Positions 3,201 to 21,773 of a DNA stretch of 32,430 bases are shown piece after piece. Location of the stretch: assembly GCA_001600495.1 (NCBI GenBank), contig BCKE01000043.1, positions 142,492 through 174,921 of the forward strand, read 5' to 3'. Made by a program: the position numbers and the translations under genes. The number at the start of each line of letters is the position of its first letter. The stretch's first letter is position 1. A model generated the notes under the pieces. It saw nothing but the letters and a program-made list of their open reading frames with translations. It ran no database searches and was not told the DNA's origin. Source of the stretch: Pilasporangium apinafurcum. Its lineage: Eukaryota; Oomycota; Peronosporomycetes; Pythiales; Pythiaceae.

Positions 3201-3624
3201 TAGACAACCAGAGTCAGCTGTACCCTGCACCGGCACGATGGTGTTGGATTCGAACAGTAAACCTAATTGGAAGATGGCATGCAATACCTGCAACCTATTA
3301 ATCAAGTTCCAGACGTCAACAACACCAATTCACAACATTCAGACGCGGAAGGGAGAAACATGCGACGAGTGTGGATCGACACTCTTGGACGTTGAGTTCC
3401 ACAAGGACAAATCGCCACTCAAAGACGGCCAGACAACGTATGTGGGCTGTGTCTTATGTGATGAATTTTTGAATAACTTGACTGAGATGAAGCAAGGGCG
3501 CTTGAAGCACATTGATCTCGTCCGTAGCCGCCGGGGTGGCAGAGGACGTGGACGCGGACGAGGGCGCGGTCGAGGCGGAGCGCGACGTGGCCCGAAAGGG
3601 TTGTTATCTGTGGACGAGTTCTAA
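231..3624 (+). CDS. TOP3B: DNA/RNA topoisomerase III beta, 11 exons
   Basis: Type IA topoisomerase that cuts and passes single strands of DNA (and, in the TOP3B branch, RNA). Exons: 231-380, 454-584, 660-723, 798-953, 988-1209, 1311-1403, 1472-1508, 1583-1665, 1745-1903, 2005-2195, 2265-3624. All introns are GT-AG and the phases close, giving about 881 residues (human TOP3B has 862). The N-terminal TOPRIM fold is shown by MVAEKPS with its catalytic Glu and by the metal-binding [15 protein letters not shown]. The active-site Tyr is about residue 340 in [10 protein letters not shown]. The C-terminal third has many CxxC pairs (zinc ribbons), and the last ~30 residues form an Arg/Gly-rich RGG-type tail typical of TOP3B, not TOP3A. 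In animals this tail goes with RNA binding and TDRD3 partnership; that is family knowledge, not shown here. The start was chosen because it gives the family N-terminus [12 protein letters not shown]. Confidence 0.93.
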
Positions 3625-17070: not shown

Positions 17071-17340
17071 AGACGTGGCTGTGGCATTGGGTACATTTTT
17101 CTCTCTGGGCGCCTATGAAAGCGCGCCAGCGCACATCCGACTACTCCACGGCGGCGGGAAAATACTCGTTGACGTGCTATTTGCATACCCAACAAGAGAC
17201 AAAAAGAGAGGTCACCTATTCGACACCACCATACACCGAGTTTGACTGGCTGTGGTGTGTGACACGCCGCCCCCCATCCCCTTCTCTTTTTTTGTTTTGT
17301 GGTATTCATATTTTACGAGGTGCCAAGTTCACTACATCCA

Positions 17341-17357
17341 TCATTCTTGTACTTTCC
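17341..17357 (+). promoter_or_regulatory. initiator-like site of HSF-like gene 1
   Basis: TCATTCTTGTACTTTCC resembles the oomycete initiator plus flanking T-rich element and sits 52 nt upstream of the ATG. Two core positions differ from consensus. Confidence 0.3.
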
Positions 17358-17392
17358 CAGACAGGCGAACAACTAGAAAACGGGGTCACTTA

Positions 17393-18292
17393 ATGACGCT
17401 ACCTCTCTCGTCCGCTGCTCAGCCACTTCCAGCAATCGCCACGGGCTTCGTGCGCAAGCTGTACCGCATGTTGGACCAGGAAAGCGTTGCCATTATCGCC
17501 TGGGACCGCTCAGGCAAGTCGTTTTCGATCTACGATGGTGACAAACTGAACGATTGCGTACTGCCACGATACTTTCGTGGAAGGCTCTTTGCGTTCAGGC
17601 AGCAGCTACTGGACCATGGTTTTCAGTGCATAGCCAACACCCACGGTCTCGCAGTGGAAACCTATGCACATGAGTTTTTTGTGCGTGGGTGTCCGGGAAA
17701 ACTGAGTTTCATTGCGCGCACGCCGCAGGCAAATAGACCGCGGCGCCGCCCATCTAGAAGCAAAAAGGCCAAGGCGCTGGCTGAAGCCAAGCGCGCCGCT
17801 GCTGCTGTAAATACCAACACTGCTAATGCTGCTCCTCCTACAAATATGAACATACTCCCACCCACTCTTCTTGACCCAGTGAGTATGAAGGTGGAGGCAA
17901 CTGAGCCAACGGTTAAACCGGAGCAGTTGCAGCAGAATCCACTCTTTGCCGCCGACGATTGTTGGGATTTTTCACAATGGGTGGCGTCAAAGAGTCCGTT
18001 GCTATTTGAGAACAAGATCTCCCCGCGCGGCATTGATGAGATACCAGACTTGCTGCTCAATGACAATGCCGCTGCCGCAGAGATGTGTTTCTCTGATGAC
18101 ACACTCAGCACTTTGATGAATTTGATCAATACCACCGTGTCAGTGGGGCCGTATGAGTGCATAGGTAGTAGTGGTGGTTCATGTGTTCCTTCGACGGTGA
18201 AGGGATCTGTTACCAATCCTGCAGGGATTGTAGAGACCCACCAATTTTCCGATGACACGCTCAATTCCATGATGCAATGGATTGGTGACTGA
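17393..18292 (+). CDS. HSF-like transcription factor 1
   Basis: Single-exon protein of 299 residues. An HSF-type winged-helix DNA-binding domain occupies about residues 16-110: GFVRKLYRML, W-D-R-SGKSFSIYDGDKLND, VLPRYF, and a final FVRGCPGKLSFI. The recognition helix is unusual: where classical HSFs have SFVRQLNMYGF, this has AFRQQLLDHGF and is one residue shorter before it. A basic stretch (RPRRRPSRSKKAK) after the domain may be a nuclear signal. No HR-A/B heptad-repeat coiled coil is seen. The C-terminus has an NPLF motif and two FSDDTL...M.L/W acidic-hydrophobic motifs, possibly transactivating. The open frame continues upstream to 17252 without an ATG; the ATG at 17393 is the first. Likely nuclear; targets unknown. 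Confidence 0.85.
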   Translation: MTLPLSSAAQPLPAIATGFVRKLYRMLDQESVAIIAWDRSGKSFSIYDGDKLNDCVLPRYFRGRLFAFRQQLLDHGFQCIANTHGLAVETYAHEFFVRGCPGKLSFIARTPQANRPRRRPSRSKKAKALAEAKRAAAAVNTNTANAAPPTNMNILPPTLLDPVSMKVEATEPTVKPEQLQQNPLFAADDCWDFSQWVASKSPLLFENKISPRGIDEIPDLLLNDNAAAAEMCFSDDTLSTLMNLINTTVSVGPYECIGSSGGSCVPSTVKGSVTNPAGIVETHQFSDDTLNSMMQWIGD

Positions 18293-19229
18293 ACCACACT
18301 CCATGTGTTCTCAGTGAACGCTTTGATCAAGGAAATGACCAGCTAGCAATATTTTTGAAACCCCATGTCGGTCGATGGTGACAAAGGGAACGATGAGAGT
18401 TGAAACGTTCTCATCATCATCGCCATTATATCAACTGCCTGCAAGCACTACGAAGAAAACAAAAAAGCAAACAAGAAAAAGCATCAGAAAAAAGAAAAAA
18501 TCCCAGAAACAAGCAAGAGACGAGATTCCAACTGTATTTGGTGCACAGAAGCTTACTACATGTCAAGCCAGCTAGATAGAAGAACCAACGAGCATTGGCG
18601 ACAACGAAGAAAAGAAAAAACCAAGCGAGCTACATATCAAGCAAACCAGAAATAAATCAAGAACTCATGAAGACAAACCAGCAAAACGATAAAACAAGAG
18701 AACGCTGACAGCGCCAATGTCCAAGCACGTATATGTCCGAAGCCTATAAACCCATTCCCGTATCAAGCGTCAAGTGTCCAGCGTCAAAGCACCAAGCGTC
18801 TGCTCCCAGCTCCAGCCAGTGACAGGAAGGCAAGGTCCATGTCATAGGAAGGGAGCGTATGGGAGCACACAGACACTGTCTATACGTCGTAGTTGTTAAC
18901 AAAATAAAGCGAAAAGAAATGGAACCAAACGGAGTAGGAAAGAGAGAGAGAGGAAGAGAAAGAGAGGGAGGGAGACTGTAGGGAGGTGCTGCTGGTTCCT
19001 TTGCTTTGCTTGGCGGTGGTGGTGGTTTCTGGTTGTTTCTTGTTTCTTTTCACAGACTCTAACGAGTCTAGCCTTCCACACAATAAAGGAGAGTATTCTC
19101 CACCTGTGCATTGTATGGAACAGATAGGAGAGCACACACATAACCTTTTTCTATGCTCTACGCACACCATTCTTTTGGGTATGACTAACGTCGGTACTAA
19201 GTCTACTGCTGGTAATTGGCATATGGACT
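18293..19229. other. intergenic, A-rich and simple-sequence
   Basis: No gene supported. 18430-18720 is very rich in A and AAG/AAC runs on the + strand; 18930-18980 is a GA-rich tract. The sequence looks like a long 3' flank of HSF-like gene 1 running up to the inverted-repeat element. Confidence 0.5.
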
Positions 19230-19296
19230 AACTGTGTAGACACGTTTGAAAAGTCGGTAGACTCTCCCACTGTCCATGGACACTCTTCCTACACTC
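19230..19296 (+). repeat. left terminal inverted repeat
   Basis: Begins AACTGTGTAGACACG and ends TTCCTACACTC. Its reverse complement is found at 19972-20038 with six transitions. Confidence 0.85.
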
Positions 19297-19655
19297 TATT
19301 CTACATATCAGTAGCTTCACAAAAACAATTTGTGTATCGAGCATGCACATCGGCTCGATGAGTCAGGGACTCAAGTGCAAGCAAGCGCGACGAACAGGAG
19401 GCTGATGCGCCAACAAAAAATGCGCTCAAGTACTCGATTATTACCACGAAGTGAGTGACGCTCTGCCACAATCCCGTCATCCAGCAAGAAGTAAATGATC
19501 GGCTTTTTGGTGAGCTTTTGGGCGACGCATCCATTTCGTAAATTATGTTTCCTTCAATCCAGATTTGGTTGGAAGATGTTGGCACATCTGGCAAAGCGGT
19601 TAGTGCCCACGCCAAGCCCTCATGTTTATATTGCCCTCGGTAATTAGTATGATAG

Positions 19656-19979
19656 GACTTCGTCAAGGGCCATGCGCACGTACCCATGAAGCGGTTCACA
19701 TGTGAGCTGGCAAGGCGCGCAACCGTGCTGCAGATCGACGAATACCGTACGATTCAGCGATGCTCCGAGTGCTACCAGCAGCTCGAAAAGACACCATTTC
19801 CGACGAAAAATACTGATGGAAGTGTGGGTGCCGAGCTCTCCCACCAGGTTATCTACTGCAACAATAGCGAGCGTAGAATCACGTGGGAGCGATATGTGAA
19901 TGCGTCAAAGAACATCCTTATACTCGCTATGTGTCTCCTACATGGATGCCCAAGACGATTCGAGTTGCGACGAGTGTAG
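19656..19979 (+). pseudogene. C-terminal fragment of a Fanzor (TnpB-like) RNA-guided nuclease
   Basis: The frame from about 19656 to the stop at 19977-19979 reads like the end of TnpB/Fanzor proteins. It has KGHAHVPMKRF, then ELARRATVLQIDEYRT, a zinc-ribbon start RCSEC, a later YCNN, and the RuvC-III block ERYVNASKNIL. Family knowledge: the last block is normally RDxNAxxNI, its Asp being the third catalytic acid. Here that Asp is Tyr, and the fourth zinc Cys is also lost. Two stops (TGA, TAG) lie just upstream in the same frame, and GDASIS, which resembles the part just before, occurs at about 19520-19540 in a different frame. It is therefore truncated, frameshifted and catalytically dead. 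The stop codon lies inside the right inverted repeat. Confidence 0.72.
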
Positions 19980-20038
19980 GAAGGGTATCCGTGGACAGCG
20001 GGAGAGTCTACCGACTTTTCAAACGCGTCCACACAGTT
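19972..20038 (-). repeat. right terminal inverted repeat
   Basis: Reverse complement of the left repeat: GAGTGTAGGAAGGG at its inner end, ACACAGTT at its outer end. It lies 232 bp upstream of the start of HSF-like gene 2, so it may be part of that promoter region. Confidence 0.85.
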
Positions 20039-20270
20039 TATCCGTATTCTGGTAACCGCCAATGGGTATATGGTCTCAACTGCTCCAAAAACCCAATTTC
20101 AGCCAATGATTTTTCTTATGATAGAATTTCCACCAATCATTATGAGATTCAGATAATAGAGAACAACTGCCTAGAAACGAAAATTGCACACAGAAAGCGT
20201 TCCTCCATAATTACTCAGCAAAATTATCACAGCTCAAGGTAGCCAAATTGATACGCATAACCTCTCAGAA

Positions 20271-21773
20271 ATGGCAGCGGGCATCGCAACAGGCTTCGTG
20301 CGGAAGCTCTACCGCATTTTGGACCACGAGAGTAACGCCATTATCAGCTGGGATGCCTCGGGCACATCATTCTCCATCCATGACAGTGACAAGCTTAACG
20401 ATGAGATCCTGCCCCAGTATTTTCGCGGGCGATTGAGTGCGTTCCGACAGCAATTGATCGACCACGGCTTCGAGCAGCTCGAGTGCGAGGACGATGAAGT
20501 GCGCGAAGTGTATATGCATCCAGATTTCCAGCGTGGATGTCCAGGAAGACTGAGTAATATCGTTCGAATCCCCAAAAAATCAAAGAAAAAAGGTGCTTCT
20601 CAACAGATTACAGCCACTATTAATGGGTCAGCAACTCATAATAATCATAATTTGCTAGCACCACTGACGGTAACATTGAACGGCAACACTACAAAACGCG
20701 CTCGTCCTGGTGGCGAACAACTTGGACGAGATCCCTCCGTGGCACTGGAACAAAAGCGGGTACGCGTGGAGCCATCATGGCCAACAACAGCGATGAATAA
20801 CAGCGAAATCAATAGCAACAGCGAAATGGGGTCTGTAATGACAAAAAATCCGCTCTTCTCGAATGACCCAGACATGGGATCACTTTCACTAGCAAGAATA
20901 GCTGAAACTGGCCTTTTGCCAGCCAGTACAGACTTGCCTGAACCGATCAGTTATCTCACCAAATCGTCTGGTGATGATTCTCAACAACAGCTTCCATCCG
21001 ATTCATCAGTGTCTACCGTCAGTAGTGTGAATGGATTACAAACATCTGCTCCTGTACCCACAGCATCAACCGCAACTTCAAGCATTATGGAAGCGACCAT
21101 GTTTTCGGATGACATGGTTAAATCAGCGCTTTTCTTTTTGGTATCAAGCTCCATGACTGGACTGGAAAACGGCGGATCAACTGCAAATACGAATGGAAAT
21201 GCTGCTGCTATTGATGCTGTGCCAACAGGTCGCGATCAAAAGAACTTGAACACAGGTTTTTTAGCGGCACTGTTGGCGTCATCGTCGACAGGAGCTGCCC
21301 CCAACGCGTTGAGCGAATGGGCAACATCGTCCTCAGCCTCAAATCCGCTCTTCAGTGACCAAAGTACCGCTGATGATGATGAAGATCAAGACAGCATCTG
21401 GAATTTGTTGGTGGCGTCGTCGATCGATCGCGTGAAAAATGTGATTTCGGATGAAATTTCGCCGCAGGAGAAACTCAAGCGCATTCTTGCTGAACGAGAG
21501 AAACTGGAGGAACAGCGGCTGAAGATCGGTGCTCCTGCTCCTGCGATAGTGAACATCACTAGCAGACCGAAGCCACCGACTCATCCAAATCCACTCTTTG
21601 CTGCTAGTGCGTCCAAGACGAACGCTTTTGTAGGGACAGCAACCGGAAGTGGAGGTAATAATTCTTCTACTCCGTCTACTACACGAAATGGACCAACTGA
21701 TGACGATCTCTGGCGGCTGCTCATGTCTTCATCTGTCGATTCGTTTCGACGAGCAGCGGAGTTTGAGGTGTAA
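20271..21773 (+). CDS. HSF-like transcription factor 2
   Basis: Single-exon, 500 residues, paralog of the gene at 17393. The HSF-type DNA-binding domain is at about residues 5-104: GFVRKLYRILDHES, W-D-A-SGTSFSIHDSDKLND, LPQYFRGR, AFRQQLIDHGF, RGCPGRLSNIVRIPKK. The same altered recognition helix is present. A Lys-rich patch (KKSKKK) follows. Instead of an HR-A/B oligomerisation region, the domain is followed by a long Ser/Asn/Thr-rich stretch. The C-terminal two-thirds repeat a unit: NPLF (codons near 20847, 21341, 21588) and acidic-hydrophobic blocks such as FSDDMVKSALFFLVSSSM, DSIWNLLVASSIDRVK and DDDLWRLLMSSSVDSF, which resemble AHA-type activation motifs. A short charged coiled coil (LKRILAEREKLEEQRLK) lies near residues 403-419. 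The function is probably sequence-specific activation in the nucleus. Confidence 0.87.
   Translation: MAAGIATGFVRKLYRILDHESNAIISWDASGTSFSIHDSDKLNDEILPQYFRGRLSAFRQQLIDHGFEQLECEDDEVREVYMHPDFQRGCPGRLSNIVRIPKKSKKKGASQQITATINGSATHNNHNLLAPLTVTLNGNTTKRARPGGEQLGRDPSVALEQKRVRVEPSWPTTAMNNSEINSNSEMGSVMTKNPLFSNDPDMGSLSLARIAETGLLPASTDLPEPISYLTKSSGDDSQQQLPSDSSVSTVSSVNGLQTSAPVPTASTATSSIMEATMFSDDMVKSALFFLVSSSMTGLENGGSTANTNGNAAAIDAVPTGRDQKNLNTGFLAALLASSSTGAAPNALSEWATSSSASNPLFSDQSTADDDEDQDSIWNLLVASSIDRVKNVISDEISPQEKLKRILAEREKLEEQRLKIGAPAPAIVNITSRPKPPTHPNPLFAASASKTNAFVGTATGSGGNNSSTPSTTRNGPTDDDLWRLLMSSSVDSFRRAAEFEV

Follow-up and report, generated by a model that had tools for sequence, protein, structure and literature searches.

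An 857-bp unit at 19206-20062 of the 32,430-nucleotide stretch of DNA analysed here (the window) is very probably an old, shortened copy of a Fanzor transposon: an internal deletion removed part of an element that has inverted-repeat ends and is present in many copies. The limits of the unit were obtained by aligning its arms to the right ends of 20 relatives. The copy is most likely inert now, because the left tip is badly decayed and little of the Fanzor protein is left, a catalytic residue being among the losses. Inverted terminal repeats enclosing Fanzor sequence are common to several copies in the genome, and comparison with a longer member reveals the pattern of a ghost or deletion derivative: the ends are kept and the interior is lost.

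Arms and protein remnant of the window element

The following features were assigned (window coordinates):

19206-20062, plus strand: complete 857-bp element, from one inverted arm to the other; limits from the right-end alignment of 20 copies and from the tips
19206-19296, plus strand: left arm, repeating the right end in inverted orientation and strongly diverged at its outer 15 positions
19972-20062, minus strand: right arm, holding the stop codon; tip agrees with the family at 13/15 positions
19297-19501, plus strand: inner left part; homology to the inner sequence of L027, L011 and L033 starts at about 19314
19501-19508, no strand: internal-deletion junction (L033 474/1782); 1308 bp of an L033-type element are absent
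19508-19979, plus strand: C-terminal part of Fanzor, with the open frame 19656-19979 and the TNB zinc finger
19204-19205, no strand: TA beside the left end, candidate target dinucleotide
20063-20064, no strand: TG beside the right end; TA occupies this place in the 12 sister copies

The core of the inverted repeat is formed by 19221-19296 and 19972-20047, two arms of 76 nt with 67/76 identical positions. A preliminary description of the locus had reported a 67-bp pair with 61/67 identities and had called the repeats well conserved. The pair is real but longer, extending to 91 bp per arm (74/91 identical), and the good conservation holds for the inner part but not for the outer 15 positions, just 7/15 of which match between the arms. 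Compared with the family terminus, which was read by eye off the right ends of the 20 copies, the left tip matches at 7/15 positions and the right tip at 13/15. A chance origin of the arm pair is excluded by its BLAST E value of 7e-22 in the self-comparison within 2.1 kb. The 76-nt pair was the only match in this comparison, so there is no antisense Fanzor sequence after the left arm. The neighbouring dinucleotides, TA before the left arm and TG after the right arm, do not form a clean target duplication. From about 19314 the inner left part reads as a 5′ part of the Fanzor gene. The element lies between two open frames of the same orientation (17252-18292 and 20271-21773), both with heat-shock-factor DNA-binding domains.

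Only the C-terminal part of the protein is still open. The frame 19656-19979 encodes 107 aa and its stop codon (19977-19979) lies inside the right arm, as described before. In the profile search proposed earlier as a check, the 107-aa product matched Pfam PF07282 (Cas12f1-like TNB) with E 1.9e-4, but its 22.0 bits fell short of the curated cut-off of 26.3; the match to NCBIfam guided_TnpB was weak (E 0.03) and far under the family cut-off. The sister copy L015 reached 25.0 bits with PF07282. PDB searches with the window fragment and with a piece of the longer relative L033 returned no Fanzor match. A profile of eight C-termini did not find Fanzor in PDB either; its weak matches included LaTranC (E 1.0 and 1.3), which we take to be a TnpB-related nuclease.

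In an alignment of eight C-termini the window copy has Tyr in place of the RuvC-III Asp, which is present in all seven other copies. Where five of the seven others read SECR the window reads SERR, a zinc Cys being replaced by Arg; L028 has SEYR at this position, and L023 is frame-shifted there and across the finger. Zinc cysteines are gone in each of L016, L017, L021 and L028. The pair preceding the zinc finger is TI in the window and TS or MS in the others. Measured against the motif [TS][TS]xx-C4-...-RD, quoted for the C-terminal half of Fanzor by Bao and Jurka 2013 (PMC3627910), the window copy deviates by TI, by being one Cys short and by RY; in the sister copy L012 all three features are intact (TS, four Cys, RD). 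The loss of the Asp and of one zinc Cys, from which the preliminary description had concluded that the nuclease is dead, is borne out by the alignment: the nuclease remnant is dead, with the remaining protein missing or broken. Judged from the same residues, the window copy is a decayed member of the Fanzor family.

The distribution of substitutions over codon positions was determined in the C-terminal region of 21 copies, after the near-duplicates L013 and L020 had been dropped. Substitutions common to at least three copies favoured the third position (33, 21 and 49 at the three codon positions, 107 of each; p 3.3e-4, with columns treated as independent and 11 of the 21 copies belonging to one clade). 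Rarer substitutions had no bias (37, 45 and 39; p 0.84), and neither had the changes private to the window (2, 5 and 3). The pattern suggests past coding constraint on Fanzor followed by neutral decay.

Relatives with inverted repeats

The genome of the window (36.5 Mb, 136 contigs) was searched with the window element (best 40 of 303 candidate places scored), with its left 300 bases (best 40 of 213), with the C-terminal protein (best 150 of 589) and with the PF07282 profile (best 150 of 852). Since the best candidates alone were scored, all copy counts are lower bounds. The repeats, whose uniqueness in the genome would have spoken against a transposon, occur at many places. All 150 scored places of the profile search pass the cut-off, and the genome thus carries at least 150 places with a TNB domain. 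Twenty copies were retrieved at first and nine further stretches later. Many copies had been anticipated, together with some carrying full-length Fanzor, clean duplications and empty sites; the copies are there, but no intact member of the window's family was seen among those examined, the frames being broken. On viral contigs, 45 stretches matched the pattern for relatives and none of them was confirmed.

The most informative relative is L033, a unit of about 2.15 kb with inverted ends of about 100 bp and a longer but broken Fanzor frame. Most of its interior is collinear with L028 and L035. L033 contains a 289-residue open piece reaching a RuvC-I-like motif (GIDSG), and further pieces continue up to the zinc finger. 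By itself, the 289-residue piece gave nothing Fanzor-like in Pfam or PDB, and the L027 piece and a 251-residue piece of L028 gave nothing Fanzor-like in Pfam and NCBIfam. It is the shared C-terminal half that links the inverted-repeat form to Fanzor.

Alignment with L033 agrees with the proposal that the Fanzor gene belongs to an inverted-repeat transposon of which the window holds a short deletion derivative: the window element lacks L033 positions 474-1782. Three other copies lack different segments (L026, 572-1772; L011, 621-1664; L034, 353-2113), and each of the four deletions left both ends in place. The shortest derivative, L034, measures about 380 bp. Identity between the arms is 74% in L033, 85.5% in L034 and 80% in L035, compared with 88% for the inner arms of the window, which are thus the best kept of these. 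In L011 and L028 the left arms are longer and include antisense Fanzor sequence. In L026 a separate inverted pair of 125 bp (2817-2941 and 3332-3456, 98.4% identical) spans the end of the element and the flank outside it; this is probably a recent inverted duplication.

A sister subfamily with an IS607-type left half

The preliminary description had tied the Fanzor gene to an inverted-repeat transposon. The right end is found with other left ends as well: 12 of the 20 copies fetched first begin with an unrelated sequence that does not repeat the right end in inverted orientation. These 12 copies are 1513-1703 bp long. When one left half of this type was used as query, 30 of the 40 scored places (best 40 of 590 candidates) started at query base 1-3.

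In all four copies scanned (of the 12), the upstream piece matches the TnpA of IS607. With NCBIfam transpos_IS607 the E values were 2e-10 (L025), 5.5e-8 (L015), 1.8e-6 (L021) and 0.047 (L017), all under the 110-bit cut-off; Pfam Resolvase matched L025 (0.0036) and L015 (0.024), also below cut-off. The OrfB helix-turn-helix exceeded its cut-off in L009, L015, L016 and L017. Genome-wide, 131/131 candidates matched the TnpA family at E up to 1, with none over the cut-off, and by hand count 97 of these matches start at profile position 86 or later, i.e. they are without the N-terminal part. The TnpA remnant of the sister subfamily is truncated in this way. Merging the best 150 of the 589 protein-search places yielded 144 Fanzor places; 57 of them are preceded on their own strand by an IS607 TnpA match no more than 2 kb away (median distance 842 nt), 4 have one on the opposite strand and none has one downstream. 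The window element itself has inverted ends, which sets it apart from IS607 elements, and no TnpA remnant was seen in it.

Past the helix-turn-helix, the frame of the sister copies enters a DRDVNAARNI-like stub ahead of RuvC-I. The stub reads as the end of a Fanzor2, similar ends being present in L030-L032. L019 forms a bridge: it has the sister-type left end and the TnpA piece, and the sequence behind them shows 50-52% similarity to the L031 and L032 Fanzor. L018 and L020 are 99.2% identical over 1562 bp and their flanks do not match further, so the sister subfamily appears to have been mobile recently.

In a tree built from 23 copies of the right part that both forms have in common, the 12 IS607-type copies form one clade with a support of 0.996. 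With midpoint rooting this clade is nested within the inverted-repeat copies, several other nodes being weak (0.31, 0.71). The terminal branch of the window copy is 0.136 long, and L018 and L020 are nearly identical. The inverted-repeat form thus looks like the older of the two, whereas movement of the IS607-type form is recent.

With an IS607-type left half joined to the right half of the window's family, these copies look chimeric. Tentatively, the sister subfamily may be a true chimera, although we consider this somewhat doubtful. Its left half would be of the IS607/Fanzor2 type, comprising the left end, the C-terminal half of TnpA, the OrfB helix-turn-helix and a stub like the RuvC-III end of a Fanzor; its right half, with RuvC and the right end, would come from an inverted-repeat Fanzor element. 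The subfamily would owe its spread to acceptance of this right end by an IS607 recombinase. Two unrelated transposition systems would in that case be served by a single end sequence, and a mere exchange of ends could carry Fanzor genes from IS607 to inverted-repeat elements or back.

Transposition and relation to known elements

The junctions of the 12 sister copies were inspected for target sequences. TA is present at all 12 right junctions and at 10 of the left junctions as placed; a one-base shift of L016 would add an eleventh, and L017 has no TA on the left. Thus 10 of the 12 copies, or 11 with the L016 shift, have TA on both sides, which fits a mariner-type duplication and a serine-recombinase crossover alike. 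The joined flanks of seven sister copies were used to look for empty sites and none was found, all 14 matches being the copies' own flanks.

DDE_3 was the only DDE family searched in the genome; the search gave 59 matches from 89 candidates, and no transposase bounded by the family ends was found, one neighbourhood having been examined. At L037/L036 (C4:719429-720013) a DDE_3 frame halts just ahead of an inverted-repeat end of the window's family. It was considered as the partner transposase and rejected: the frame stops just short of the repeat, outside it, and the element seems to have inserted directly behind the DDE_3 stop codon. Four of the 59 DDE_3 places (contigs C7, C15, C34 and C135; by eye) have a scored PF07282 place no farther than about 1 kb away, a hint that other Fanzor families may include elements with a transposase.

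From other Fanzors a guide RNA is expected at the right end. The right end gave no Rfam match at E up to 1, folded no better than shuffled sequences (z 0.10, DNA parameters), and had a covariation term of 0.11 with 1/9 compensated pairs; a guide-RNA structure is not supported by these results.

We propose mobilisation in trans: a transposase encoded elsewhere would have recognised the ends of about 91-100 bp and joined them to TA. The simplest mover would be a Tc1/mariner-like enzyme, as in the oomycete Fanzor1 elements described earlier. As long as full-length copies were alive, their Fanzor, guided by an RNA from the right end, could have cut vacated sites again and thereby preserved the element, and the deleted copies would borrow this service. 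The preliminary description had suggested that the window copy could still be mobilised by an intact relative. Given the diverged left tip, the long terminal branch, the TA/TG flanks and the failure to find a transposase (DDE_3 searched), this is not supported.

The inverted arms of the window could also be explained as the right ends of two separate Fanzor copies lying head to head, with no inverted-repeat element involved. This does occur: in L010 and L025 the left 'repeat' is part of a neighbouring inverted copy, with Fanzor on the other strand. For the window, however, the explanation was rejected and is highly improbable. The junction between left arm and inner sequence is crossed by the match in 7 of the 40 scored places, the window included, and it is common to L033, L034, L035, L036 and L026, which lie on different contigs or at distant positions; nor is there antisense Fanzor behind the left arm. 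The shared junction already largely refutes head-to-head copies. Scarcely more credible is that the locus has been kept as a working 'ghost' whose right end continues to supply a guide RNA to Fanzor proteins produced at other loci. The well-kept right tip and the description of Spu-1 ghost loci with guide-RNA regions (PMC10432273) speak for it, but folding, covariation and Rfam detected no conserved RNA structure. The window-private changes also lack codon bias, a point that bears on the protein only.

A more serious competitor, still unlikely in our judgement, concerns the mover: an IS607-type serine recombinase would have acted on two inverted right ends with a TA crossover, the inverted-repeat form having arisen from an IS607-type element by replacement of its left end with an inverted right end. 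The recently spread 1.5-1.7-kb subfamily has the same right end with a TnpA remnant and without an inverted left end, TA at both junctions suits a serine recombinase as well as mariner, and IS607 exchange is stated to take place at matching dinucleotides (PMC10711439). On the other hand, inverted ends are absent from IS607 elements, the midpoint-rooted tree nests the IS607-type copies inside the inverted-repeat copies, which makes the inverted-repeat form look older, and bacterial IS607 uses GG according to the same paper.

Compared with known systems, the window copy can be regarded as an ordinary relic that fits a known kind, the partial and ghost loci of Spu-1 from Spizellomyces punctatus. 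Saito et al. 2023 (PMC10432273) report 42 loci in which Fanzor is complete or partly kept, and 134 'ghost' loci that consist of the repeats only. Like Spu-1, the present family has a parent of about 2.1 kb with inverted repeats and one Fanzor frame, no transposase was found between the repeats, and copies without part or all of the Fanzor gene occur. It differs in the repeats, which are 33 or 30 bp there and about 91-100 bp here, in that no intact family member was seen, and in having a sister subfamily with an IS607-type left half.

According to Bao and Jurka 2013 (PMC3627910), inverted-repeat elements are carriers of Fanzor1, among them a Fanzor-only Mariner-type one in Pythium; PUl-4 carries Fanzor1 only, with Mariner repeats and TA duplications, and Fanzor2 is present only in IS607-type elements. 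PUl-4 and other oomycete Mariner-type Fanzor1 elements resemble the present family, by description and not by sequence, in carrying Fanzor only, in their inverted repeats and, as far as the window copy's left end and the sister copies go, in TA at the ends; the difference is that no mariner transposase with these repeats was found here. The likeness to Fanzor1 elements would be one of size and repeats alone. MITE-like derivatives offer a further parallel, being short with both ends kept and having several different internal deletions, the extreme being L034; but there was no single homogeneous burst, and the copies are old, each with a distinct deletion.

The relatives matter more than the window copy itself, as many Fanzor places have an IS607 TnpA remnant upstream and other copies of the same Fanzor half lie in an inverted-repeat element. 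Yoon et al. 2023 (PMC10711439) sought Fanzor1 in IS607 elements as an evolutionary intermediate and report none. If its Fanzor half is Fanzor1, the mixed subfamily may be an exception. It would then be a mixed form of the kind sought as intermediate, though apparently secondary, and the transfer of Fanzor between transposon systems would be testable within one genome. No report of an IS607/inverted-repeat Fanzor chimera was found by title or abstract among open-licence papers.

To IS607-type Fanzor2 elements such as ISvMimi the sister subfamily is alike in its left half, with the TnpA remnant and the OrfB helix-turn-helix. The window element differs from them by its inverted ends, by an N-terminal region unlike that of the IS607-type copies and by having no TnpA remnant. 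Another IS607-type Fanzor is present in the genome at L029 (C135:16000-20189), where a 691-residue frame with Fanzor has the mimivirus TnpB-like L79 as its best PDB match (E 7.6e-17) and an IS607 TnpA match with stops inside lies at the same place. L030, L031 and L032 constitute a second Fanzor family; they are about 98% identical in the 3′ parts compared and 87-95% identical in one 5′ part, and this family is probably young.
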